Assembly (NCBI RefSeq): GCF_001432305.1
Contig: NZ_KQ483358.1
Coordinates: forward strand, 308,213-372,212
Length of the DNA stretch: 64,000 nucleotides
Source of the DNA: Curvibacter sp. PAE-UM
GTDB lineage: Bacteria > Pseudomonadota > Gammaproteobacteria > Burkholderiales > Burkholderiaceae_C
Direction of reading: 5' to 3'
Part shown: positions 6,333 to 40,653 of the stretch, piece after piece
How the letters are laid out: each line of letters begins with the position of its first letter
Position numbering within the stretch: position 1 is the stretch's first letter
Translations under genes and position numbers: made by a program
Notes under the pieces: generated by a model
The model's database searches: none
Told to the model about the DNA's origin: nothing
Seen by the model: only the letters and a program-made list of their open reading frames with translations

Positions 6333-6409
6333 CCCGTTTCCTTGTCTACTCGCCTGAGGTCACTCTGGACCCCGCTTGCAGCCATGGTAGGGAGCGATTT
6401 GACGTCATG

Positions 6410-6427
6410 TTGTCATTGCGACGACAA
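6410..6427. promoter_or_regulatory. candidate Crp/Fnr-type dyad between ligase operon and regulator
   Basis: The 18-bp sequence TTGTCATTGCGACGACAA has TTGTC/GACAA arms around an 8-bp centre, and 7 of 9 half-site positions are symmetric. It lies 78 nt before the ligase start and 56 nt before the divergent Crp/Fnr-family gene. Size and symmetry suit a dimer of that family. Binding by the adjacent regulator is inference. Confidence 0.5.
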
Positions 6428-6482
6428 TTCAGGGGAATCCCTAGCTGGTACTTTCCCGCCCTGTCTCTCTCTGTCCTTGTCC

Positions 6483-7193
6483 ATGACAACCGAACCTAGC
6501 CTGCACCAGCGCCGACGCGCGCCCACCGCGGCCGAACTGGCAGGCATCCCCTGGCTGAGGCAGCTCAGCCCCGAGGAGTACGCCATCGCCGTGGCCGAGC
6601 TGCAGATCAGCGAGGCACAACCCGGTGATCTGGTCTGCCGCATCGGTCGCCCGGTGACCTACTGGTTCGGCGTGGTCGACGGCCTGCTCAAGATGAGCGG
6701 AGAAAACGCCGAGGGCCAGGCCATGACCTTTGCCGGCCTGCCGCCGGGCGGCTGGTTCGGCGAAGGCACGGTGCTCAAGCGCGAGAGCTACCGCTACAAC
6801 GTGCAGACCCTGCGCAAGAGCCTGGTGGCCGGCCTGCCCGTGGACAGCTTCCACCGCCTGCTGGACCATTCCATCGGTTTCAACCGTTTCGTCATGAACC
6901 AGCTCAACGAACGCCTGGGCCAGTTCATCGCGGCGCGCGAGATCGACCGGATGAACAGCCCCGACCTGCGCGTGGCGCGCAGCCTGGCCGCGCTGTTCAA
7001 CCCGGTGCTCTACCCCGGCGTGGGCGAGGTGCTGCGCATCACGCAGCAGGAACTGGCCTATCTGGTGGGCCTGTCACGCCAGCGCGTCAACGAGGCGCTG
7101 GCCAATCTGCAGGAGCGCGGCCAGATCCGGATCGAGTACGGCGGCCTGCGCGTGCTCGACCTGGAAGGCCTGCGCTCACAGCGGCACGCTTAG
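6483..7193 (+). CDS. Crp/Fnr family transcriptional regulator
   Basis: This 236-aa protein has an N-terminal cyclic-nucleotide-type beta-barrel (about 20-140) and a C-terminal winged helix-turn-helix (about 170-230) with the recognition region ITQQELAYLVGLSRQRVNEAL. No N-terminal cysteine cluster typical of FNR is seen, so an Fe-S sensor is unlikely. The frame is open for a very long way upstream, opposite the ligase, but that is antisense shadow; the ATG at 6483 (MTTEPS) fits the family length. It probably controls the divergent ligase-liv operon and itself. Its 3' end overlaps the convergent TonB receptor gene by 18 nt. Confidence 0.88.
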   Translation: MTTEPSLHQRRRAPTAAELAGIPWLRQLSPEEYAIAVAELQISEAQPGDLVCRIGRPVTYWFGVVDGLLKMSGENAEGQAMTFAGLPPGGWFGEGTVLKRESYRYNVQTLRKSLVAGLPVDSFHRLLDHSIGFNRFVMNQLNERLGQFIAAREIDRMNSPDLRVARSLAALFNPVLYPGVGEVLRITQQELAYLVGLSRQRVNEALANLQERGQIRIEYGGLRVLDLEGLRSQRHA

Positions 7194-9281
7194 GCGCACA
7201 CCGAGGGTCCAGTTGAACCCGGGGGCCGGCTCGTAGAACTGGCTGGCCGCCTGGTTGACGATGACCGAGCCCACGTAGCGCTGGTCCGTCACGTTGTCCA
7301 GCCGCCCATAGGCCGTCAGGCTGCCCTTGCCGGCCACCGGCCAGCCCTGGCTGGCCTTGAGGTTGAGCGTGGTGTAACCCTCGGCCGAAGCGGTGTTGCT
7401 GTCGTTGGCGTAGAGCTTGCCGGCGCTCACCACCTCCGCGCCGGCCTGCGTGCCCAGCCCCGGCTTGCGGCCCGCGTTGTCCAGGGCCTGCGCCGACCAC
7501 AGCAGCTCGGTGAACAGGAAATGCTGCGGGATGCCCGGCAGGCGGTTGCCGGAATTCACGGCCACCCCGTTGGTGACGAAGGTCTCCGAGAACTGCGCCT
7601 CGATCGCCGACGCCGACAGCGTGCCCCGCCAGTTCGGGCTCAGCAGGGTGCGCCCGGCCAGTTCCCAGCCCGTGCGCGTCGTGCCCGGCGCATTCTTGTA
7701 GGCCGTGCTGCCGCCGCTGCTCACCGCCACCACGATCTCGTCCGTGGTGGTGATCCGGTAGACCGTGAAGTCCACGCGCGAGCGCGCCTCGGGCGCCCAC
7801 TTCGCACCCAGCTCGTAGTGCTGGCTGCGCGCGGCGTTGATGTTGGGGTTGAAGTTCGGCGCGCCGGTGCCGGTGTAGGCCACCTCCACCAGCGTGGGCG
7901 TCTCGAAACCGCGCCCGTAGTTGGCGTAGAGGTTGAGCGTGTCCAGCGTGTGCCAGGTCAGGCCCAGCACCGGGTTGGCCGCGCTGTAGCTCACGTCGCC
8001 CGAGCCGTTGCCATTGCCCAGGAAGTAGTCCTCGCTGGCGATGCGCACCGAACTCGCGCGCAGGCCGGCCGTGGCGGACAGGCGATCGGCCGCCAGCACC
8101 GTGGCCTGGGCAAAGGCATCGCTGTTCTGCGCGCTGTTGTCCTCGTTGCGCGTCGGCGCGCCTGTTTTCTCGCCGCCACTCACGCCGCCGGACTGGCGGC
8201 GTTCCTTGGAATAGTCGTACTCGTAGCCGGCCACCCAGTTCACCGGGCGGCTGCCCCAGCGCGCCTGGGCGTTGTACTGCAAGCCGGCGCCGTAGTAGTC
8301 GCGGTTCAGGCCCACCCAGTTGGTGGGCAGGTACTGCAGGTTGTCACGCTTGCCGTAGTACAGGCGCGCCGTCACCGAGCGGCTGGCGTCCAGCGCATGC
8401 GTCACGGAAGTGCCGGCCTGGCTCTGGCTGGTGATCTTGCGCAGGCGGGCGCTTTGGGCGCTGGTGCCGGCCTGCGTGGCGTCCTTCGCCAGCTGCGCCG
8501 CCGTCAGGCCCACCGGGTCCTGGGCCAGCGGCATGTCGAAGTGGTTGAACACCAGGTTCACGCGGGTGTGCGCGTCCGGCCCGAAGCTCACCTTGCTGTT
8601 GAACTGCTTGCGCTCGGTCGTGCTGTGGTCGCGAAAGCCGTTGGTGTCGAAGGTGCTGTAGTCAGCCACCAGGCCCACGCCGCCCACGCGGCCGGCCACC
8701 TGCCAGTCGGTACGGCGCATGTCGTAGGAGCCCGTGTAGAACTGCGCGCCGAACTCCGGCACCTCGGGCGCTTCGCGCGTGAAGGCCTGGATCACGCCGC
8801 CGGCGGAGTTGCCGTACATCAGCGCCAGCGGGCCGCGCAGCACCTCGATACGCTCGGCCGAGGTCAGGCTCACCGAGGAGCCCTGGCCCTGCCCGTCGGG
8901 TGTGGTGGCCGGGATGCCGTCGATCAGCAGGCGGATGCCGCGGATGCCGAAAGCCGAACGCGCACCGAAGCCACGGATGGAGACCTGCAGGTCCTGCGCA
9001 TAATTCTGCCGGTTCAGGATGGTCAGGCCCGGCACGCGGTTGAGCGACTCCGACAGGTTGACCTGCGGGCCGGCACTCTGGAGGGTCTCGCGGTCGACCG
9101 ACTCGATGGCCGCCGGCGCGTCGAAGCTGCGCTGCTGCGCGCGCGAGGCCGAGATCACCACGTCGTCCAGTGTCTGGGCCCAGGCTGGCACGGCGCCCAG
9201 GCCGGCCACCAGCAGCGCCAGCGTGGTGCGCACGCCGGGGAAGCGGTTCACCCGGCTGTCTTGTTGTTGGTGCAATCTCAT
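7176..9281 (-). CDS. pqqU: TonB-dependent outer-membrane receptor, PqqU/YncD type (PQQ uptake)
   Basis: This 701-aa protein has a signal peptide (ending near PAWAQ), a TonB-box-like LDDVVISA, a plug domain and a 22-strand-type barrel ending in ...LGVRLSVPL. Recalled from memory, it matches E. coli YncD/PqqU unusually well, for example VNLSESL..VPGL, NRQNYAQDLQ.SIRGFG, DGIPAT.PDGQGQ, GRGFETPT and YVGSVIVN...YYEPAPG. YncD/PqqU is established as a TonB-dependent PQQ importer. The start codon overlaps the stop of the cytochrome c gene (ATGA), so the two are translationally coupled. The neighbouring PQQ-type dehydrogenases fit PQQ uptake. Confidence 0.85.
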   Translation of the reverse strand: MRLHQQQDSRVNRFPGVRTTLALLVAGLGAVPAWAQTLDDVVISASRAQQRSFDAPAAIESVDRETLQSAGPQVNLSESLNRVPGLTILNRQNYAQDLQVSIRGFGARSAFGIRGIRLLIDGIPATTPDGQGQGSSVSLTSAERIEVLRGPLALMYGNSAGGVIQAFTREAPEVPEFGAQFYTGSYDMRRTDWQVAGRVGGVGLVADYSTFDTNGFRDHSTTERKQFNSKVSFGPDAHTRVNLVFNHFDMPLAQDPVGLTAAQLAKDATQAGTSAQSARLRKITSQSQAGTSVTHALDASRSVTARLYYGKRDNLQYLPTNWVGLNRDYYGAGLQYNAQARWGSRPVNWVAGYEYDYSKERRQSGGVSGGEKTGAPTRNEDNSAQNSDAFAQATVLAADRLSATAGLRASSVRIASEDYFLGNGNGSGDVSYSAANPVLGLTWHTLDTLNLYANYGRGFETPTLVEVAYTGTGAPNFNPNINAARSQHYELGAKWAPEARSRVDFTVYRITTTDEIVVAVSSGGSTAYKNAPGTTRTGWELAGRTLLSPNWRGTLSASAIEAQFSETFVTNGVAVNSGNRLPGIPQHFLFTELLWSAQALDNAGRKPGLGTQAGAEVVSAGKLYANDSNTASAEGYTTLNLKASQGWPVAGKGSLTAYGRLDNVTDQRYVGSVIVNQAASQFYEPAPGFNWTLGVRLSVPL

Positions 9282-9592
9282 TTCTCTTCCACCCGGATCT
9301 GCAGCGACGCGTACCACGCCGCCAGGTTGTCGATGTCGGCGTTGCTCAAGGGCTTGGCGATGACCGTCATCACCTCGTTGGCCCGTTTGCCATTGCGGAA
9401 ATGCTTGAGCTGCTCAGCCAGGTAGACCTCCTGCTGCCCGGCCAGATGCGGCACGCCTGGCTGCATGGACAGGCCCAGCGGGCCATGGCACATGGCACAC
9501 GCGGCGGCCGCCTTGGCCTTGCCTGCGGCCACATCGGCCTGCGCTGCTGCCGCCAGGGCCAGCAACACTCCTCCCAGAACACACTTGTTCAT
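9278..9592 (-). CDS. class I monohaem cytochrome c, periplasmic
   Basis: This 104-aa protein has a signal peptide (to about residue 19, AQA), one CAMCH haem motif and a distal Met candidate in the KRANEVMTVI region. It is probably the electron acceptor for a periplasmic dehydrogenase. I take the ATG at 9592, preceded by GAGTGAGG, over an in-frame GTG at 9607. Its stop overlaps the pqqU start. It lies downstream of a PQQ-type dehydrogenase but is separated from it by a terminator. Confidence 0.88.
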   Translation of the reverse strand: MNKCVLGGVLLALAAAAQADVAAGKAKAAAACAMCHGPLGLSMQPGVPHLAGQQEVYLAEQLKHFRNGKRANEVMTVIAKPLSNADIDNLAAWYASLQIRVEEK

Positions 9593-9609
9593 TCGAAAAT
9601 TCCTCACTC

Positions 9610-9640
9610 AAAAAAACGACGGAGATCGTCACGATCTCCG
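9610..9640 (-). terminator. intrinsic terminator after the minus-strand PQQ-type dehydrogenase
   Basis: On the minus strand CGGAGATC-GTGAC-GATCTCCG forms an 8-bp stem (the full dyad is 10 bp per arm), followed within four bases by seven T. It sits between the dehydrogenase (stop 9693) and the cytochrome c gene (start 9592). Transcription is therefore probably attenuated here, or the cytochrome has its own start. Confidence 0.85.
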
Positions 9641-9692
9641 CCGGGTCTCAGCGATGCCGCGCGCTCGACGCGCGCGACATCATGGGCCACAC

Positions 9693-10973
9693 TCAGTGGC
9701 TGTGGGTCACGCGGTAGATCGCGCCGACATAGTCATCCGAGATCAGCAGCGAGCCGTCCTTCATCACGGCCACGTCCACCGGCCGGCCCTTGTAGATGCC
9801 ATTGGCATCCAGCCAGCCTTCGGCGAAGACCTCCGAGGCGCCTGCCGTGCCGTCAGCCTTCACGGGCACGAAGTTGATCAGCGCGCCGGTGGCCTTGGTG
9901 CGGTTCCAGGAACCGTGCGAAGCCACGAAGATGCCGCCGCGGTACTTGGCCGGGAACATGCCGCCGTTGTAGAAGGTCATGCCCAGCTGGGCCTGGTGGG
10001 CAGGGAACTCGACCTGCGGCTTGGTCCAGCTCGCCGGTGCCTTCATGCCCTTGAGGTCGGGCGCCGCGCCCGTACCGGCGATCTGGGTGTTGTTGCCGTG
10101 GATGAAGGGGTAGCCGAAGTGCTCGCCACCCGCCTTGGTGATGCGGTTGAGCTCACCCGGCGGGATCTCGTCACCCATGCCGTCGGTCTGGTTGTCGGTG
10201 AACCAGACCGTCTTGTCCTTCGGGTTGATGTCCATGCCCACCGAGTTGCGCACGCCCACGGCGACCACCTCGCGCTTGGAGCCGTCGAAGGGGTCCATCC
10301 GGATCATGCCGCCGATGCCCAGCTTCTCGTACAGCGCCACCTTCTCCTTGGGCTGCACGTTGTAGGGCTGGCCCAGGGTGACGTAGAGCTTGCCGTCGTC
10401 ACTGACGCGGCAGGTGCGTGCCCCGTGGTTGTAGGACTCCTCTTCTTCCGGCACCAGCTTGCCCTGCGGCACCACCTCGATCACCGCCACGTCCGGGCCT
10501 TCATAGAAGAACTCGGCGGCCGGGAAGTTGAGCACGCGGTTGTGCTCCGCGACGATCAGGAAACCGTCCTTGGTCCAGCACACGCCGTTGGGCACCTTGA
10601 AGTTGAGCGAGGGCGCAAAGGCCTTGACCTCGTCGGCCGTGCCATCGCCATTGCGGTCGGTCACCGCCCAGACCTTGGTCTTGCGCGTGCCCACGAAGAG
10701 CATGTTGGTCGAGGGCGCCACCGCCATGTGGCGCGCGTCGGGCACCACGGCAAACAGCTCGATCTTGAAACCCGGCGGCAGCTTGACGCTCTTGAGGTTG
10801 GCGCGTATCGCGTCCGCATTGCGCCCTTCCTGGGGCACCAGCGGAATGTTCAGATCGGTGGTGGCAACCTTCATCTGCTTGAGCGTGGACAGGTTGTCCT
10901 TGCCCGCCTGGGCACTGGCCCCGCTGGCGAGACCCGCCATCAGCAAGGCGGCGAAAAGTTTCTGCATCTTCAT
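9693..10973 (-). CDS. PQQ-dependent sugar dehydrogenase family (L-sorbosone dehydrogenase-like), periplasmic
   Basis: This 426-aa secreted beta-propeller protein has a signal peptide ending at ASA-Q. It carries family segments such as KLPPGFKIELFAVVPDARHMA, the GVRNS...WFTDN region and the late FVASHGSWNRT and GRPVDVAVMKDGSLLISDD motifs. Members oxidise aldoses or sorbosone-like aldehydes with PQQ and pass electrons to cytochrome c. A good AGGAG ribosome-binding site precedes the ATG. It is divergent from a paralogue at 11278 and upstream of a cytochrome c and the PQQ receptor gene. The exact substrate cannot be told. Confidence 0.85.
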   Translation of the reverse strand: MKMQKLFAALLMAGLASGASAQAGKDNLSTLKQMKVATTDLNIPLVPQEGRNADAIRANLKSVKLPPGFKIELFAVVPDARHMAVAPSTNMLFVGTRKTKVWAVTDRNGDGTADEVKAFAPSLNFKVPNGVCWTKDGFLIVAEHNRVLNFPAAEFFYEGPDVAVIEVVPQGKLVPEEEESYNHGARTCRVSDDGKLYVTLGQPYNVQPKEKVALYEKLGIGGMIRMDPFDGSKREVVAVGVRNSVGMDINPKDKTVWFTDNQTDGMGDEIPPGELNRITKAGGEHFGYPFIHGNNTQIAGTGAAPDLKGMKAPASWTKPQVEFPAHQAQLGMTFYNGGMFPAKYRGGIFVASHGSWNRTKATGALINFVPVKADGTAGASEVFAEGWLDANGIYKGRPVDVAVMKDGSLLISDDYVGAIYRVTHSH

Positions 10974-11277
10974 TCCTGCTCCTTGGTTGTTCGGTTTTTT
11001 GTTTCCAAAAAGAATTTGGAACAGCCATTAAGCAAACCCTCAGGGCAAATTGCAAGTTGCCATCGGCTACCCATGACCGTATCGAGGGTAAGTCCCCAAT
11101 CAAGTGTCAATTTTTGAAGCACTCGCATGCCACCGATTCATCACCCGGGTCTTATGTCTGTGCGGCCGGCGAAATCGTATGCATACGTGGAAACCCTAGA
11201 ACCAGCCGGCGCCGGCGGTACTAGCATCGGCTTCGGTCCCTCTACAACAAACAACATCTTCTACGGAGACATCCTTC
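10974..11277. promoter_or_regulatory. 304-bp divergent control region between two PQQ-type dehydrogenases
   Basis: No gene is supported here. It must contain the start signals of both divergent dehydrogenases. Visible elements are an inverted repeat TTCCAAA-AAGAA-TTTGGAA at 11003-11021, about 30 nt before the minus-strand start, and a perfect 12-bp palindrome CGTATGCATACG at 11176-11187, about 90 nt before the plus-strand start. Either could be an operator. I could not assign -10/-35 boxes with confidence. Confidence 0.55.
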
Positions 11278-12585
11278 ATGACCAGAAAACTCACCCTGGC
11301 GGGCGCCGTGCTCGTCGGCCTGCTGACCGGCTGCGCCACCTCCGAGCCGCCCAAGCCCCAGGCCGCGCCTGCCCAGCCCGCACCGCAAGTCGCGGCCGCC
11401 CAGCCTGCTGCCGCACCCGCCCCGATGGCCGCCGCGACACCAGCACCCCCGCCCCCGCCCGCCTGGCAGCAGGGCCGCCCGGCCAGCATGGCCGACTCCA
11501 GGCTGGCCCCGGTAGCCGGCAAGAACACCGTGACACCCGCCTCTGAAATCCCGCTGGACAAGCTCAAGCTGCCGCCGGGCTTCAAGGTCGAGGTCTGGTC
11601 CACCGGCACACCCGGCATCCGCGCCATGTCGCGCGGCGCCAGCGGCAAGATCTACGCCGGCACGCGCGGCCTGGGCCGCGTCTACGAGATCAGCGACAAC
11701 GGCAAGGAGCGCACGAGCCGCGTGGTGGTGGACAAGCTCAACCAGCCGGCCGTGGTCATGCACAAGGGCAATCTCTACGTGATGGCCATCGACAAGGCCC
11801 TGCGCTACGACGGCATCGAGAAGAACCCCGGCGTGGCACCGGTCGACATGACCGCCGCCTTCAAGCTGCCGCCGCAACAGCACCACAACTGGAAATACCT
11901 GCGCTTCGGCCCGGACGGCAAGCTCTACGTACCCTTCGGCGCACCGTGCAACATCTGCGCCCTGCCCACGCAGGAATACGCCCAGATCCGCCGCTACAAC
12001 GCGGACGGCTCGGGCATGGAAGTCATCGCCACCGGCGTGCGCAACACCCAGGGCTTCGACTTCCACCCCGTCACCAAGGAACTCTGGTTCACCGACCACG
12101 GCCGTGACTGGCTGGGCGACGACGGCCCGGAAGACGAACTCAACCGTCTGGGCAAAAAGGGCCAGTTCTTCGGCTTCCCCTCCTGCCATGCCAACGGCAT
12201 TGCCGACCCCGACGTCAAGAAGGACGACGCCTGCAAGGGCGTGACCCTGCCGGTGCGCACCATGGGCCCGCACGCCGCCAACATGGGCCTGCACTTCTAC
12301 ACCGGCAAGATGTTCCCGGCCAAGTACAAGAACGTGGCCTTCATCGCACGCAAGGGCTCCTGGAACCGCACCACCAAGATGGGCTACGACGTGGTCACGG
12401 TGAACGCCGATGCCCAGGGCCGCAACCCGGTGATGACGCCCTTCATCACCGGCTTTGCCGACCCGGCCGCCAACACCTTCTGGGGCCGTCCGACCTACTT
12501 CCTGCAAATGCCCGATGGCGCCCTGCTGCTCTCCGACGAGCAACTGGGTGCGATCTACCGCATCTCGTACAGCGCCAAGAAGTAA
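11278..12585 (+). CDS. PQQ-dependent sugar dehydrogenase family lipoprotein
   Basis: This 435-aa paralogue of the divergent gene starts with a lipoprotein signal (lipobox LLTGC, Cys about 18). An Ala/Pro-rich tether to about residue 80 follows, then the same propeller fold, with KLPPGFKVEVWSTGTPGIRAM, GVRNTQGFDFHP and GSWNRTTKMGY. It is therefore probably membrane-anchored in the periplasm, whereas its paralogue is soluble. A terminator and a dihaem cytochrome c follow. PQQ dependence is inferred from the family. Confidence 0.85.
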   Translation: MTRKLTLAGAVLVGLLTGCATSEPPKPQAAPAQPAPQVAAAQPAAAPAPMAAATPAPPPPPAWQQGRPASMADSRLAPVAGKNTVTPASEIPLDKLKLPPGFKVEVWSTGTPGIRAMSRGASGKIYAGTRGLGRVYEISDNGKERTSRVVVDKLNQPAVVMHKGNLYVMAIDKALRYDGIEKNPGVAPVDMTAAFKLPPQQHHNWKYLRFGPDGKLYVPFGAPCNICALPTQEYAQIRRYNADGSGMEVIATGVRNTQGFDFHPVTKELWFTDHGRDWLGDDGPEDELNRLGKKGQFFGFPSCHANGIADPDVKKDDACKGVTLPVRTMGPHAANMGLHFYTGKMFPAKYKNVAFIARKGSWNRTTKMGYDVVTVNADAQGRNPVMTPFITGFADPAANTFWGRPTYFLQMPDGALLLSDEQLGAIYRISYSAKK

Positions 12586-12604
12586 GCCCGGCCTGACCCG
12601 GCAA

Positions 12605-12629
12605 GCAGGGCTGCGGCCCTGCTTTTTTT
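12605..12629 (+). terminator. intrinsic terminator after the plus-strand PQQ-type dehydrogenase
   Basis: The stem GCAGGGC-TGCG-GCCCTGC is followed directly by seven T. It lies in the 70-nt gap before the dihaem cytochrome c gene, mirroring the arrangement on the minus-strand side. Confidence 0.9.
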
Positions 12630-12655
12630 ATGTGCATCGATTAACGGTGAACGCC

Positions 12656-13222
12656 ATGCCTCTGATCTACCTCCTGCTCCCCGCCCTGGCCCTGCTGCTG
12701 GCGGCGGATGTCCGAGCCCAGCAACCGCCCCGGCTCGAACTCTGCGCGGCCTGCCACGGCCCGCAGGGCAACTCACAGAACCCGCAGTTCCCTTCGCTGG
12801 CCGGGCAGCCGAAAGTCTTCATGGAGAACCAGCTGGTGCTGATCCGCGAAGGCTTGCGCGACATCCCGCCCATGAAGGGCGTACTCGACGGCCTCACGGA
12901 CGCCGACCTCATCGTGCTGGCCAGATACTTTTCGGAGCAGGTGCCGGTGCCGTTGGCCACCCCGGTCGATGCCGAGCGTTTTGAACGCGGCAAGGTGCTG
13001 GCGCGCAGCATGCTCTGCGGCACCTGCCACCTGCCCGACTACAAGGGGCGCGAGCAGATGCCGCGCCTGGCCGGCCAGCACGAACTCTTCCTGCGCGCCG
13101 TCATGGAGGAGTACCGCGACAAACCCGGCCCCGGCCGCGACACGGTCATGACCAATGCCCTGGGCGGCCTGAACAACCAGCACCTGGACGATCTGGCCCA
13201 CTTCCTGTCCCACGTCAAATAG
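12656..13222 (+). CDS. dihaem cytochrome c, periplasmic
   Basis: This 188-aa protein has a signal peptide (ending near VRAQ) and two cytochrome c domains, with haem motifs CAACH (about residue 31) and CGTCH (about residue 121). It resembles cytochrome c4-type dihaem proteins in size. The ATG at 12656 gives a proper signal peptide; the longer open frame from 12455 overlaps the dehydrogenase and was rejected. It is the likely electron acceptor for the upstream lipoprotein dehydrogenase. Confidence 0.9.
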   Translation: MPLIYLLLPALALLLAADVRAQQPPRLELCAACHGPQGNSQNPQFPSLAGQPKVFMENQLVLIREGLRDIPPMKGVLDGLTDADLIVLARYFSEQVPVPLATPVDAERFERGKVLARSMLCGTCHLPDYKGREQMPRLAGQHELFLRAVMEEYRDKPGPGRDTVMTNALGGLNNQHLDDLAHFLSHVK

Positions 13223-13259
13223 GCGCCGGCCCAGGGGGCACCTCTACAATTGGGGCCTG

Positions 13260-14162
13260 ATGAAGGACACCCCCGAAAAGCCCGCCGCCCCCACCCTGCG
13301 CCGCGCGCCGCGCCCCGAAGGCGCCGCCGCGCCCAAGCCCGGCGGTGCGGCCGCCACCAGCCGCATCAACAAGCGCATGGCCGAGCTCGGCCTGTGTTCG
13401 CGCCGCGAGGCCGACGCCTGGGTCGAGAACGGCTGGGTCAAGGTCAACGGCAAGACCGCCGAGATGGGCCAGCAGGTCACGCCCAGCGACCGCATCGAGG
13501 TCGACAAGCAGGCGCAGAACCAGCAGGCCACGCAGGTCACCATCCTGCTCAACAAACCCATCGGTTACGTCAGCGGCCAGGCCGAGGACGGGCACGAACC
13601 CGCCGTGGTGCTGGTGCAGCCGCAAAACCGCTGGCGCGACGACAACGCCCGTTTCTTCTTCAACGGCGCGCAATTGCGCGGCCTGGCGCCAGCCGGCCGG
13701 CTGGACATCGATTCCACCGGCCTGCTGGTGCTCACGCAGGACGGCCGCGTGGCGCGCCAGCTCATCGGCGAAGACTCGGTGATGGAAAAGGAATACCTTG
13801 TGCGGGTGGTCTACCTGGGCACACCGGCCGCAGACGCCGCCCCCACCCAGCTCACCCGCATCGATGACGACGACCCCATCTCCACCAATGTGCAGGCCGT
13901 CTTCCCCGCCGCCATGCTGGCCAAGCTGCGCCATGGCCTGAGCCTGGACGGCCAGGCCCTCAAACCCGCCAAGGTGGACTGGGAGAACCCCGAGCAGCTG
14001 CGCTTTGTGCTGACCGAAGGCAAGAAGCGCCAGATCCGCCGCATGTGCGAACTCGTCGGTCTGAAAGTGGTGGGCCTCAAGCGCGTGCGTATCGGCCGCG
14101 TCATGCTGGGCCAGCTGCCGGTGGGTCAGTGGCGCTATCTGGCGCCGCACGAGAAGTTCTAG
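13260..14162 (+). CDS. rRNA pseudouridine synthase, RsuA/RluB/RluF family
   Basis: This 300-aa enzyme has an S4 RNA-binding domain (about residues 34-85) and a catalytic domain with the GRLDIDSTGLL motif, in which Asp is the nucleophile. The C-terminal GKKRQIRRMCELVGLKV motif is also typical. The N-terminal ~30 residues are Pro/Ala/Arg-rich and probably disordered. The sequence seems closest to RluF-type enzymes, which modify 23S rRNA, but the family member is uncertain. It lies 37 nt after the cytochrome gene in the same direction. Confidence 0.87.
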   Translation: MKDTPEKPAAPTLRRAPRPEGAAAPKPGGAAATSRINKRMAELGLCSRREADAWVENGWVKVNGKTAEMGQQVTPSDRIEVDKQAQNQQATQVTILLNKPIGYVSGQAEDGHEPAVVLVQPQNRWRDDNARFFFNGAQLRGLAPAGRLDIDSTGLLVLTQDGRVARQLIGEDSVMEKEYLVRVVYLGTPAADAAPTQLTRIDDDDPISTNVQAVFPAAMLAKLRHGLSLDGQALKPAKVDWENPEQLRFVLTEGKKRQIRRMCELVGLKVVGLKRVRIGRVMLGQLPVGQWRYLAPHEKF

Positions 14163-35323: not shown

Positions 35324-36301
35324 ATGCATATCCCGTCCTGGCTCCTGCGTTTTCCTGTCGGTCTTTTTGCCATCCCCGTTGGCCTGCTGGCGCTCGGTGG
35401 CGCCTGGCGCCGTGCCACGCAATTCGGCTGGGCCTGGGCCCGCGACGTCGGCGACCTGCTGGCCTGGTCCGCCCTGGCCGTCCTGGCTGTCCTGCTGCTG
35501 ATCTATCTGGCCAAATGCCTGCGGCATCCGCAGACCATCGCCGCCGAGTTCACCCACCCGCTGGCCGGCTCGCTGATGGCGCTGGTGCCACTGTCCATCC
35601 TGCTGTGCATCATCTATTTCGGCACACCCGGCCATGCCGGCTGGCTGCTCCTGCTGCTGGCCACGCTGGCGATGCAAGGGGTGATTGCCATCCGCATCGT
35701 GGCCATCATCACCAACGCCTCCTTGCCCGCCGGTGCGGTCACCCCGGCACTTTATGTACCCCCGGTCGCCGGCGGTTATGTGGGCGGCATGGCCCTGCAG
35801 GTGCTGGGTTACCCGGGCTGGGCCGCCCTGCTCCTGGGCATGGGCCTGGTCAGCTGGGCGCTGCTGGAGATCCGCGTGCTCAACCGCCTGTTCGAAGGCG
35901 CCATGCCCGAGGCCCTGCGCCCCACCATCGGCCTGGAACTGGCGCCTGCCACGGTGGGCACGCTGACGGTGGCCACGCTGTGGCCGCAGCTGCCGGGTGA
36001 GCTGCTCATCATCGGCCTGGGCATCGCGGCCGGGCCGCTGGTGGCGGTCATGGCACGCTACAAGTGGTGGGGGCACCTGCCCTTCGCCATCGGGTTCTGG
36101 TCCTTTTCCTTCCCGGTAGCGGCTTTTGCCGCCGTCCTGATCGAGGTGGTCTACCGTGGCGCCTGGCCGCCGGCCGTCGCCGCCGTCGGCCTGGCCCTGG
36201 CCTCGGTGGTCATCGCCTTCCTCGCACTGTCCACGCTGCGCCTGCTGGCCCAAGGCCGGCTGATCCCCACCGCACCGGCACCGACAGCGCCGCGGCCATG
36301 A
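35324..36301 (+). CDS. SLAC1/TehA-family anion channel or dicarboxylate transporter
   Basis: This 325-aa polytopic membrane protein has about ten hydrophobic segments and the TehA/SLAC1 features PVGLLALGGAWR near the N-terminus and ...VPPVAGGYVGG. The family (TDT) covers tellurite-resistance TehA and C4-dicarboxylate and anion transport. The stop overlaps the start of the next gene (ATGA), so the two are coupled. Confidence 0.85.
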   Translation: MHIPSWLLRFPVGLFAIPVGLLALGGAWRRATQFGWAWARDVGDLLAWSALAVLAVLLLIYLAKCLRHPQTIAAEFTHPLAGSLMALVPLSILLCIIYFGTPGHAGWLLLLLATLAMQGVIAIRIVAIITNASLPAGAVTPALYVPPVAGGYVGGMALQVLGYPGWAALLLGMGLVSWALLEIRVLNRLFEGAMPEALRPTIGLELAPATVGTLTVATLWPQLPGELLIIGLGIAAGPLVAVMARYKWWGHLPFAIGFWSFSFPVAAFAAVLIEVVYRGAWPPAVAAVGLALASVVIAFLALSTLRLLAQGRLIPTAPAPTAPRP

Positions 36302-37356
36302 ACTTCTGGCCTTCCTGCGGTTACGACCGCCTGCAACGCAATGCGCAGGGCTGGCTGCTCGTCACGCCGGACTACCTACGCCTGTTCCTCGACCGGCCCG
36401 AGCTGGCCCTGGTCCCCGAGTCCTGCAAGGCCGAACGCCGGCTGCACCAGGCCCTGCGGGACGATCCGCTGCAGTCGGTCGCGCCGGAAACACTGGCGCG
36501 TTTCAAGGACGCCGATGCGCGTGACAACTACCAGTTTTTCCTGGACTTCCGCGACGCCCTGCTGGCTGCCGGCACGCTGGAGGCGTATTACCTGCAGCTC
36601 ATGCGCAGCGGCCGCATCACCATCCCCCCGCTCTTCATCGACCTGATCGTGCAGGCCATGCTGCGCGGCCTGCTGGCGGACAACGAGGACGCGCAGCAGC
36701 TGCGTGCGGCCGAGCTGCTGTTCCGCCCGCAGCGCCTGACCGTGCAGGAGGGCCAGGTGCTGGCCGCCGACCAGGCCGTGGTGGACCTGTACAGCGAGAA
36801 CGCCGGCCTGGGCGAGATCGGCCGCCTGCTGATGGAAAACAAGTCCCGGCTACGCGAGGCCGAGCTGGCCGTGCTCGATGCATCGAACGCCGCACGTTAC
36901 TGGGAACGCAGCGAGCGTTACCACTACCTGCTGGACCTCACGCACGAAGTGCAGCAGGAGCTGAGCCACGGCCTGACCCTGCGCATGACACGCGCACGCA
37001 GCGGCCTGAAGGCGCTGGCGCGGGTGCTGGAACTCTGGGTGCAGCACCTGCTGGGCGTGGAAGTGACGATCGAGCCGCTGGCGCGCGTGGACGATACGGC
37101 CTGGCGCTGGCACATCGGCCTGGACACCGAGGCCACGGCCATCCTCAACGATCTGTACGAAGAGCAGACGGTGGAGCCCGAGCGCATGCAGCGCCTGGTC
37201 AGCCTGTTCCGCCTGAGCTTTGCCGACCCGGCCCAGATGCAGGCCGAACTGGCGGGCAAACCGGTCTACCTGGGCCTGGCCATGAACGCGCAGGGCCTGC
37301 TGCGCCTGAAGCCGCAGAACCTGCTGCTCAACCTGCCGCTGGCCAAGCAGCAATAG
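36298..37356 (+). CDS. DUF6352-type protein of unknown function
   Basis: This 352-aa soluble protein begins MNFWPSCGYDRL and has a helical, charged body (YLRLFLDRPELALVPESCKAER, NYQFFLDFRDALLAAGTLEAYYLQLMRSG). I match it from memory to a Burkholderiales-type domain of unknown function, with moderate certainty. The ATG at 36298 overlaps the TehA stop; the longer upstream frame is a shadow. Coupling to a SLAC1/TehA channel gene is its most informative context. It converges on icmF with a 3-nt gap. Confidence 0.7.
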   Translation: MNFWPSCGYDRLQRNAQGWLLVTPDYLRLFLDRPELALVPESCKAERRLHQALRDDPLQSVAPETLARFKDADARDNYQFFLDFRDALLAAGTLEAYYLQLMRSGRITIPPLFIDLIVQAMLRGLLADNEDAQQLRAAELLFRPQRLTVQEGQVLAADQAVVDLYSENAGLGEIGRLLMENKSRLREAELAVLDASNAARYWERSERYHYLLDLTHEVQQELSHGLTLRMTRARSGLKALARVLELWVQHLLGVEVTIEPLARVDDTAWRWHIGLDTEATAILNDLYEEQTVEPERMQRLVSLFRLSFADPAQMQAELAGKPVYLGLAMNAQGLLRLKPQNLLLNLPLAKQQ

Positions 37357-37359
37357 GGT

Positions 37360-40300
37360 TTACATGTTCCGGCGGTACTGGCCGCCGACCTCGAACAGCG
37401 CAGTGGTGATCTGGCCCAGGGAGCAGACACGCACCGCGTCCATCAGCACCGCGAACACATTGCGGTTCTCGATCACGGCCTGCTGCAGGCGTTGCAGCTG
37501 GGCCGGCGATTCGTCGGCGTGGCGCGCGTGGAAGTCGGCCAGGCGCTTGAGCTGGCTCTGCTTTTCCTCGTCGGTCGAGCGCGCCAGCTCCAGCTTCTCC
37601 ATCACGGTGTCGCCGTGCGGGTTGCGGAAGGTGTTGACACCGATGATGGGCAGCTCGCCGGTGTGCTTGAGCATCTCGTAGGTCATGCTCTCGTCCTGGA
37701 TCTTGCCGCGCTGGTAGCCGGTCTCCATGGCGCCCAGCACACCACCGCGCTCGCTGATGCGCTCGAACTCGGCCAGCACGGCCTCTTCCACCAGCTCGGT
37801 CAGCTCCTCGATGATGAAAGCGCCCTGACTGGGGTTCTCGTTTTTCGCCAGCCCCCACTCGCGGTTGATGATGAGCTGGATGGCCATCGCACGGCGCACG
37901 GAATCTTCCGTGGGCGTGGTGATGGCCTCGTCGAAGGCGTTGGTGTGCAGCGAGTTGCAGTTGTCGTAGATGGCAATCAGGGCCTGCAGCGTAGTACGGA
38001 TGTCGTTGAACTGGATCTCCTGCGCGTGCAGGCTGCGGCCGCTGGTCTGAATGTGGTATTTCAACTTCTGCGACCGTTCATTCGCGCCGTACTTCTCCTT
38101 CATGGCCACGGCCCAGATGCGGCGCGCCACGCGGCCCATCACGGTGTACTCGGGGTCCATGCCGTTGGAGAAGAAGAAGGACAGGTTGGGCGCGAAGTCG
38201 TCGATGTGCATGCCGCGCGCGAGATACGCTTCCACCAGCGTCAGGCCGTTGGACAGGGTGAAGGCCAGCTGGCTGATGGGGTTGGCGCCGGCTTCGGCGA
38301 TGTGATAACCGCTGATGGACACGCTGTAAAAATTGCGCACACCGTGGTGCACGAAAAACTCGGCGATGTCGCCCATGACCTTGAGCGAGAACTCGGTGGA
38401 GAAGATGCAGGTGTTCTGGCCCTGGTCTTCCTTGAGGATGTCGGCCTGCACGGTGCCGCGCACGTTCTCCAGCACCCACTCGCGGATCTTTTCGGCTTCG
38501 GTGTCGGTGGGCACGCGGCCGTTGTCGGTCTTGAATTTGGCCAGGTACTGGTCGATGGCCGTGTTCATGAACATGGCCAGGATGGTGGGCGCCGGGCCGT
38601 TGATGGTCATGCTCACGGACGTGGCCGGGTCGCAGAGGTCGAAGCCCCCGTAGAGCACCTTCATGTCGTCCAGCGTGGCAATGCTCACGCCCGAGTTGCC
38701 GACCTTGCCGTAGATGTCGGGGCGCGGGTCCGGGTCGTTGCCGTAAAGCGTGACCGAGTCGAAGGCCGTGGACAGGCGCTTGGCCGGCATGTTGGCGCTC
38801 AGCAGCTTGAAGCGCTTGTTGGTGCGAAAGGGGTCGCCCTCGCCTGCGAACATGCGCGTGGGGTCTTCGTTCTCACGTTTGAAGGCAAAGGTGCCGGCCG
38901 TGTAGGGGTAGCTGCCGGGCACGTTATCCAGCATCAGCCACTTGAGGATTTCGCCGTGGTCCTCGTATTGCGGCAGCGCCACCTTGCGGATGGTGGTGCC
39001 CGAGAGTGACTTGGTGGTCAGCGCGGTGCGGATCTCCTTGTCGCGAATCTTCACCACGTACTCGTCACCCGCATAGGCCTGTTGCATGGCGGGCCACTGG
39101 GCCAGCAGGCGGCTGGCATCGGCATCCATCTGCAGCTGGCGCGACTGCGCCAGATCGATCGCCGCCTCGGCGGCCTTGGCGCGATCCGGTTTGTCCTGCT
39201 TGAGCATGGCCGCGGCCGCGTTGAGCTGCTGGATCTCGCGCGCCAGGCGGGCCTGGGACCGCGCACGGCGCTTGTAGCCACGCACCGTGTCGGAAATCTC
39301 GGCCAGGTAACGCGTACGGGCACCGGGCACGATGGGGCTCTGGTTGCTGCTGTGGCGCACGCTCACAACCGGCAGGCGGCCGGTTTCGAGCTTCAGGCCC
39401 AATGCGCCCAGCCGTACCTTGAGGGCCTGGTAGAGCGCGGTCACACCGTCGTCGTTGAAGCGCGCGGCCATGGTGCCGAAGACCGGCATCTGCTCGGGCG
39501 GGATGCTCCAGGCTTCGCGGTTGCGCTGCACCTGCTTGGCCACGTCGCGCAGGGCGTCGGGCGCGCCCTTGCGGTCGAACTTGTTGATGGCCACGAACTC
39601 GGCGAAGTCCAGCATGTCGATCTTTTCGAGCTGGCTGGCGGCGCCGAACTCGGGTGTCATCACGTACAGCGGCACATCCACATGCGGCACGATGGCGGCG
39701 TCGCCCTGGCCGATGCCCGAGGTCTCGACCACGATGAGGTCGAAGCCGGCGCACTTGCAGGCGGCCACCACATCGGGCAGGGCCGCGCTGATCTCGCTGC
39801 CGGCATCGCGTGTGGCGAGTGAGCGCATGAAAACACGTGGTCCCTGCGCCCAAGGGGAAATCGCGTTCATGCGGATGCGGTCACCCAGCAAGGCGCCGCC
39901 ACTCTTGCGGCGCGAGGGGTCGATGCTGATCACGGCCACACGCAGCGCATCGCCTTGGTCCAGGCGCAGGCGGCGGATCAGCTCATCCGTAAGCGAGCTC
40001 TTGCCGGCGCCGCCGGTGCCGGTGATGCCCAGCACGGGAACCTTCCTGGCGGCCGCTTGCTCACGCAAGCGTGCGACCAGCCCCGCATCGGCGCTGCCGT
40101 TCTCCAGTGCCGTCATGAGCTGGGCCAGCGCGCGCCAGGCGGCCTCGCCATGGCCCTGAAGGGCGTCGATCTTTTTCGGTGCCAGGGCGCTGATGTCCCG
40201 GTCGCAGCGCATGACCATCTCGCCGATCATGCCGGCCAGGCCCATGCGCTGACCATCCTCGGGGCTGTAGATGCGCGTCACGCCGTAAGCCTGCAACTCG

Positions 40301-40653
40301 CGGATCTCGGTGGGCACGATCACTCCGCCGCCGCCGCCGAAAACCTGGATGTGGGCGCCGCCGCGCGCCTTGAGCAGGTCCATCATGTACTTGAAGTACT
40401 CGACGTGACCGCCCTGGTAGGAGCTGATGGCGATGCCCTGCACGTCTTCCTGCAGTGCGGCCGTGACGACCTCGTCCACGCTGCGGTTGTGCCCCAGGTG
40501 GATGACCTCGGCGCCCATGCCCTGCAGGATGCGGCGCATGATGTTGATGGCCGCATCGTGCCCGTCGAACAGGCTGGCTGCGGTGACAAAACGCACCTTG
40601 TGCGTGGGACGGTAATTCGCGAGGGCCTTGAAGTCGGCGGACAGGTCGGTCAT
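37360..40653 (-). CDS. icmF: fused isobutyryl-CoA mutase (IcmF): B12 domain + MeaI-type G-protein + mutase
   Basis: This 1097-aa protein interconverts isobutyryl-CoA and butyryl-CoA, or a related acyl-CoA, with adenosylcobalamin. The N-terminal B12-binding domain has the DGHD motif (His32 is the likely lower ligand), ISSYQGGH and GGGGG. The central chaperone GTPase has Walker [10 protein letters not shown] (212-220) and ETSGIGQ. The C-terminal mutase barrel follows (about 550-1097). The IcmF domain order is complete, with no frameshift. Whether it is specific for isobutyryl, pivalyl or another acyl-CoA cannot be decided from motifs I can see. A 22-bp palindrome lies 12 nt before the ATG. Confidence 0.93.

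Follow-up and report, generated by a model that had tools for sequence, protein, structure and literature searches.

A 64,000 nt stretch of the genome of Curvibacter sp. PAE-UM (contig NZ_KQ483358.1, positions 308,213 to 372,212; hereafter the window) carries, between its positions 7176 and 13222, five intact open reading frames (ORFs) encoding a PqqU-type TonB-dependent receptor, two PF07995 dehydrogenases (termed GSDH1 and GSDH2) and two c-type cytochromes (cytc1 and cytc2). Our computational analysis makes it likely that this locus is a respiratory module that scavenges pyrroloquinoline quinone (PQQ). The genes form two divergent units split by a 304-bp gap. The leftward unit runs in the order GSDH1 (426 aa), cytc1 and receptor, and the rightward unit comprises GSDH2 (435 aa) followed by cytc2.

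In the proposed scheme, the receptor would carry external PQQ over the outer membrane, as its signature residues suggest. Once in the periplasm, the cofactor would load two AA12-like six-bladed dehydrogenases, of which GSDH1 is predicted to be soluble and GSDH2 lipid-anchored, a step to which their conserved ligand set points. These enzymes would oxidise a substrate, probably a sugar or a related hydroxy compound, with His183 (GSDH1) or His203 (GSDH2) acting as the base if they follow the mechanism of their family. Cytc1 and the diheme cytc2, whose genes lie alongside, would then accept the electrons, consistent with the conserved pairing of genes described below.

The assignment of the receptor rests on both overall homology and individual residues. 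Its top matches in the Protein Data Bank (PDB) are the E. coli PqqU structures 6v81 and 9c4o, the former over residues 36-699 (E 8.9e-113), in agreement with a sequence-only reading of the window that had noted a match to E. coli YncD/PqqU along the length of the protein. PqqU is the sole strong near-full-length match among solved structures, and a siderophore role was set aside on this ground. The published PqqU signature consists of Y, F or W at position 99 together with R304 and R365 (Munder et al., 2025, PMC12124388). The window receptor satisfies it with F99 (for the Tyr of E. coli), R304 and R365, and also retains K274, Q84, Q121, Q308 and Y481 of E. coli PqqU. At Q310 it has Leu, like most relatives aligned with it. 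The signature is present in 111/113 receptors from the host's family, in 17/20 further receptors from its class and in 79/80 named receptors, while K274 and Y481 are each retained in 112/113 family receptors. Close named relatives of the window receptor come from Comamonadaceae, Ramlibacter, Rhodoferax and Limnohabitans records.

Both dehydrogenases resemble the fungal AA12 PQQ dehydrogenases and keep their PQQ-binding residues. In a profile search, the fungal AA12 enzymes TrAA12 (PMC6881810) and CcPDH came out as the nearest solved proteins, ahead of the glucose dehydrogenases of bacteria. GSDH1, as modelled with AlphaFold2 (mean pLDDT 84.1), is a six-bladed propeller closest to AA12 structures, which occupy Foldseek ranks 1-4; other PQQ sugar dehydrogenases fill ranks 5-17, and ranks 18-29 include structures of the animal protein HHIP. 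Nine residues that contact the cofactor are listed for the PQQ-bound CcPDH structure (PMC6881789), and when these were transferred via a HMMER alignment all nine fell on matching columns. GSDH1 keeps 9/9 (R81, H183, R242, N243, H326, H353, W356, N357 and R397) and GSDH2 keeps 8/9 (R115, H203, R255, N256, H332, W362, N363 and R404), with K359 at the remaining place. Thus, PQQ-binding residues are found in both of the proteins that the sequence-only reading had taken for PQQ enzymes. In an alignment of 21 proteins, 17 have all nine contacts and four have Lys at that one His. Such a ligand set is not automatic in PF07995, because the WN of the loop is missing in 6/54 PF07995-type proteins of a wider set (five gaps, one substitution) and because a second PF07995 protein of Nitrosospira sp. 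Nl5 (L279) keeps only 3/9 ligands; having lost the other six, the latter offers a natural non-quinoprotein control. For GSDH1 and GSDH2, the term 'sugar dehydrogenase' is best taken as a family label only.

The rest of the host genome (3.63 Mb in four contigs, rated 100% complete) yielded, within the profiles used, no further candidate user of imported PQQ. The search of the genome for pqq genes that the sequence-only reading had called for supported it: profiles for PqqC and PqqD gave no match in the whole genome (pqqA, pqqB and pqqF were not searched for), and PqqE gave one weak match of 52 bits, well below its cut-off of 381 bits. A cryptic pqqE was rejected on the basis of that score; 14/14 control genomes also match at the same threshold, none of them over the cut-off. 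As a control, the PqqC profile found its target in 47/200 family genomes. The host therefore seems unable to make PQQ. Likewise, PF01011 had no match over its cut-off in the host genome (PF13360 and PF13570 were not searched for), in a search for which E. coli served as positive control; with only two matches to this classical quinoprotein profile (E 0.005 and 0.09), both below the cut-off, we discarded the idea that another locus of the host encodes such an enzyme. PF07995, by comparison, has exactly two matches, both at this locus. Since no PF01011 match exceeds the cut-off and both PF07995 genes lie here, the only candidate clients found for the importer are its neighbours, and imported PQQ would have one evident use in this genome, namely the PF07995 enzymes encoded next to the importer. 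The earlier proposal that imported PQQ arms the local enzymes is accordingly favoured by the receptor signature, the dehydrogenase contacts and the lack of any PqqC or PqqD match.

The association recurs in the host's family, where we searched 200 genomes for PqqU and for GSDH1 orthologues, each at E 1e-80. PqqU was found in 113 genomes and the GSDH1 orthologue in 31, and PqqU accompanies 29/31 GSDH1 carriers versus 84/169 non-carriers (p 1.4e-6, with no correction for genome size or phylogeny and with sampled genomes that are not independent, so that genome size, lifestyle or shared ancestry could inflate the figure). The two GSDH1 carriers with no PqqU match are G313, which is 74% complete, and G408 (locus L094), which is 100% complete and has PqqC. 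The pattern in G408 is the one expected if the enzyme's PQQ comes from either import or synthesis. PqqC is also present in 36/113 PqqU genomes of the family.

The arrangement of the genes likewise exceeds chance. GSDH1 and PqqU lie within about 3 kb on the same strand in 13/29 genomes having both, compared with about 0.06 adjacent pairs expected under a rough model that places one or two PF07995 genes evenly in 4.5 Mb. When 113 of 115 PqqU loci were fetched with about 6 kb on each side (less at contig ends), a PF07995-type gene of varied relatedness lay within 6 kb of PqqU in 22/113 family loci, against 0.8 expected from a similarly rough even placement. Such a gene is also found beside PqqU in 2/20 further class loci and in 18/80 named loci (up to 8 kb each side), the named loci being in part genomes of the family sample (e.g. 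L224 = G278, L202 = G444). A tblastn search placed cytc1 after GSDH1 in 27/27 loci examined, which supports the description of this cytochrome as 'dedicated' in the sequence-only reading. These comprise 21 family and six named loci, with at least one genome counted twice, and together with the window they cover 22/31 carrier genomes; in 9/27, PqqU is elsewhere (eight loci) or not found (one, G408). A census of PqqU neighbours in the family, based on one identified representative per cluster, also revealed a methanol/ethanol-type PQQ dehydrogenase cluster at 11 loci, the PedF cytochrome at five and the quinoprotein relay hydrolase at nine. PqqU thus accompanies PQQ enzymes of either type. Separately, a sigma-54-type regulator cluster is present near PqqU in 17 family and three class loci (e.g. 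L133, 6539-8551).

These results bear on a puzzle raised by PqqU itself: a 2025 study described it as a PQQ importer of wide distribution, but 33% of the carriers had no predicted PQQ dehydrogenase (PMC12124388). For some enzyme-less groups the authors proposed either an enzyme missed by the search or an antioxidant role. The survey methods in the same source list PF01011, PF13360 and PF13570 together with a single profile taken from other published work. PF07995 is not named there, and the words YliI, aldose, sorbosone and soluble glucose dehydrogenase do not occur in the text. We examined 274 genomes of the class, using thresholds of E 1e-100 for PqqU, 1e-8 for PF07995 and 1e-5 for PF01011 and again no correction for genome size or phylogeny, and found these in 21, 145 and 74 genomes respectively. 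PF07995 is present in 21/21 PqqU carriers versus 124/253 other genomes (p 7.5e-7). PF01011 is present in 13/21 carriers (the match in G242 being weak, 3.1e-6) versus 61/253 others, and the remaining share of carriers, 8/21, is similar to the published 33%. Among genomes free of PF01011, PF07995 occurs in 8/8 PqqU carriers versus 78/192 non-carriers (p 1e-3).

Genes from the eight PF01011-free carriers, which include the window's own genome, were compared ligand by ligand, apart from that of G179, which lies outside this check. An Asd-like type is found in five carriers besides the host (G012, G155, G223, G236 and G266; six genes examined), whose genes keep the places of H363, R430, N431 and R621 and have Trp at R273; in the PF07995 gene of G039 the His is not present in this alignment. 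The Nitrosomonadaceae (40 genomes) are listed as PqqU carriers with no PQQ enzyme (PMC12124388). Two Nitrosospira records of this family, one a metagenome-assembled genome and the other strain Nl5, have a signature-positive PqqU as well as PF07995 genes, and each has one enzyme with all nine AA12 ligands; no neighbouring cytochrome was found in the stretches examined around these AA12-like genes. Of 80 named PqqU carriers, 50 were searched for PF07995 (E 1e-5), and 45 of them have it. On this evidence we lean towards the view that the puzzle of orphan importers is largely an artefact of the profiles searched, and that the carriers use six-bladed PF07995 quinoproteins of AA12-like or Asd-like type, including those of ammonia oxidisers in the Nitrosomonadaceae.

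Several observations weigh against the interpretation of the locus as a PQQ-scavenging module and against its extension to other carriers. The receptor scores 472 bits (E 2.4e-141) with the NCBIfam model TonB_rec_PqqU (NF041535), below the 1200-bit equivalog cut-off, and for this reason it is named PqqU-type and not the NCBI equivalog. That cut-off is attained in 0/200 family and 0/274 class genomes and by the E. coli control; being reached only by E. coli among those tested, it marks close E. coli orthologues. The alignment of ligand contacts suggested by the sequence-only reading left the signature residues standing, but the contact R536 is lost to Ser, as is N477 to Val. In E. coli PqqU an R536E change leads to a longer lag, and loss of this loop-8 arginine might change affinity or gating. 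GSDH2 has Lys in place of CcPDH His560. In 16/29 genomes having both, GSDH1 and PqqU are unlinked or fall on separate contigs, no PF07995 gene lies within 6 kb of PqqU in 91/113 family loci (for some of these because contigs are short), and PF07995 was not found in 5/50 of the named PqqU carriers searched.

The residue changes could be accommodated if the receptor imported another ligand, such as a metal chelate or other small aromatic acid, and if its neighbourhood reflected a shared substrate, for example through import of an oxidation product. In line with this, R536, which is Arg in 102/113 family receptors, is A, Q, N, P, K or S in the closest relatives of the window receptor. Furthermore, between the window and a genome of the same family (G107, locus L032, receptor 8966-11071) the receptors are about 37% identical versus 81% for GSDH1, which indicates that the receptor diverges fast. 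Against this, the three signature residues and the near-invariant K274 and Y481 described above are kept, no other solved structure matches nearly as well as PqqU, and R536, which sits in a loop closing over PQQ, is together with K274 termed less conserved even among accepted PqqU proteins (PMC12124388). We regard a different ligand as quite improbable. Slightly less probable still is the idea that both PF07995 proteins are propellers in another role, comparable to HHIP in animals, and not working quinoproteins. The family does have ligand-poor members such as the Nitrosospira protein L279, and HHIP structures do appear in the fold search; yet the window enzymes keep nine and eight of the PQQ contacts, catalytic His included, and GSDH1 is constantly paired with a c-type cytochrome. 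A further alternative is that PQQ mostly diffuses through porins, so that import by the receptor counts only when PQQ is very scarce and the grouping of the genes is a loose association. The genomes in which GSDH1 and PqqU are unlinked fit this explanation, as do the two GSDH1 carriers with no PqqU, one of which is the incomplete genome. Co-occurrence in 29/31 carriers, the 13 adjacent pairs and the overlap of the cytc1 and receptor genes argue for a closer tie, and we consider diffusion through porins unlikely, if less so than the other two alternatives.

The ORFs predicted for the two dehydrogenases and two cytochromes beside the receptor are intact at or near the positions originally proposed, with PF07995 and PF00034 matches over cut-off, and the localization proposed for the enzymes, one soluble and one a lipoprotein, agrees with signals recognized by eye (Table 1). 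The stop of cytc1 and the start of the receptor gene overlap in the sequence ATGA, and the two are therefore probably co-translated. Terminator-like hairpins follow both dehydrogenase genes. The region 6400-13400 contains 11 terminator-like sites, some overlapping and some intragenic, versus 4.1 in shuffled sequences. A strong hairpin with a T run, different in its letters from locus to locus, is found near the GSDH1-cytc1 gap in 10 or 11 of 25 GSDH1 loci, a count that includes the window and was made without shuffles; in L091 the hairpin apparently falls within the first part of the cytochrome gene, that of L097 is weak and 13/25 loci have no T run. Both hairpins of the window are probably partial terminators, which would hold the dose of cytochrome and receptor below that of the enzyme. 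A simple scan of the intergenic region between the two units gave no sigma-70-like promoter.

Table 1. Features of the PqqU-type receptor locus, in window coordinates
Feature	Coordinates	Strand	Remarks
PqqU-type TonB-dependent receptor	7176..9281	-	ATG start at 9281; open frame extends to GTG at 9317
cytc1, small monoheme c-type cytochrome	9278..9592	-	one CxxCH; signal peptide by eye; PF00034 over cut-off
Terminator-like hairpin, run of seven T	9617..9643	-	between GSDH1 and cytc1-receptor
GSDH1, predicted soluble periplasmic PF07995/AA12-like six-bladed dehydrogenase	9693..10973	-	PF07995 over cut-off; Sec-like signal by eye
Divergent intergenic region	10974..11277		between both units
GSDH2, predicted lipoprotein PF07995/AA12-like dehydrogenase	11278..12585	+	PF07995 over cut-off; lipobox LLTGC by eye
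Terminator-like hairpin with T run	12603..12624	+	between GSDH2 and cytc2
cytc2, diheme c-type cytochrome	12656..13222	+	two CxxCH; signal peptide by eye; PF00034 over cut-off

A gene for a CRP/FNR-type regulator (6483-7193, + strand) converges on the receptor gene with an 18 bp overlap and was left out of the module. Elsewhere in the window, a DUF6352 protein (36064-37353, + strand) adjoins a methylmalonyl-CoA-mutase-type protein (37363-40653, - strand), whose single chain of 1097 aa contains a B12-binding, a MeaB GTPase and a mutase domain.

The components of the locus have known counterparts, from each of which they also depart. The receptor shares near-full-length homology and most ligand positions with E. 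coli PqqU; it differs in its substitutions at R536, N477 and Q310, in falling under the equivalog cut-off and in adjoining a cytochrome and a dehydrogenase. The fungal AA12 enzymes CcPDH (6jt5/6jwf) and TrAA12 (6i1t) are the nearest solved structures by profile and, for GSDH1, by fold, and GSDH1 has all nine CcPDH contacts. In contrast to them, the window enzymes are bacterial, lack a fused cytochrome b or cellulose-binding domain and have separate c-type cytochromes; identity is 16-20% in the Foldseek alignments, and the His560 place is Lys in GSDH2. E. coli Asd (YliI), which has been confirmed as a PQQ enzyme (PMC13088180), and the soluble glucose dehydrogenase (sGDH) of Acinetobacter belong to the same six-bladed superfamily, and the His base and Arg-Asn pair align with theirs. 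Unlike sGDH, which has a Lys377/Arg408 set (PMC6881789), the window enzymes show AA12-type features (R81, His326 and the H/KGSWN loop of GSDH1/GSDH2). Finally, the ped-type PQQ alcohol dehydrogenase clusters, with their PedF cytochrome and quinoprotein relay hydrolase, also combine a periplasmic quinoprotein with a c-type cytochrome, and PqqU lies near such genes in some relatives; their enzyme, however, is of the PF01011 type that was not found over cut-off in the window's genome.

Neither the receptor nor the enzyme superfamily is new, and quinoproteins paired with cytochromes are known as well. What appears to be new is the operon, the ligand-level match to AA12 of bacterial PF07995 enzymes beside PqqU, and a co-occurrence that would answer the question of the orphan importers. 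A literature search limited to open-licence papers found none joining PqqU to PF07995 enzymes. At this locus the PQQ importer is physically linked with PF07995 enzymes, and the searches of the host genome turned up no further candidate for PQQ use. Moreover, the locus singles out a pair of candidate enzymes together with a pair of candidate electron acceptors, and the residue-level prediction extends to two Nitrosospira genomes. Enzymes of the PF07995 type may explain other bacteria that have a PQQ importer and no obvious use for PQQ, and if so, PQQ-dependent oxidation in the periplasm would be more widespread among PQQ scavengers than has been thought.

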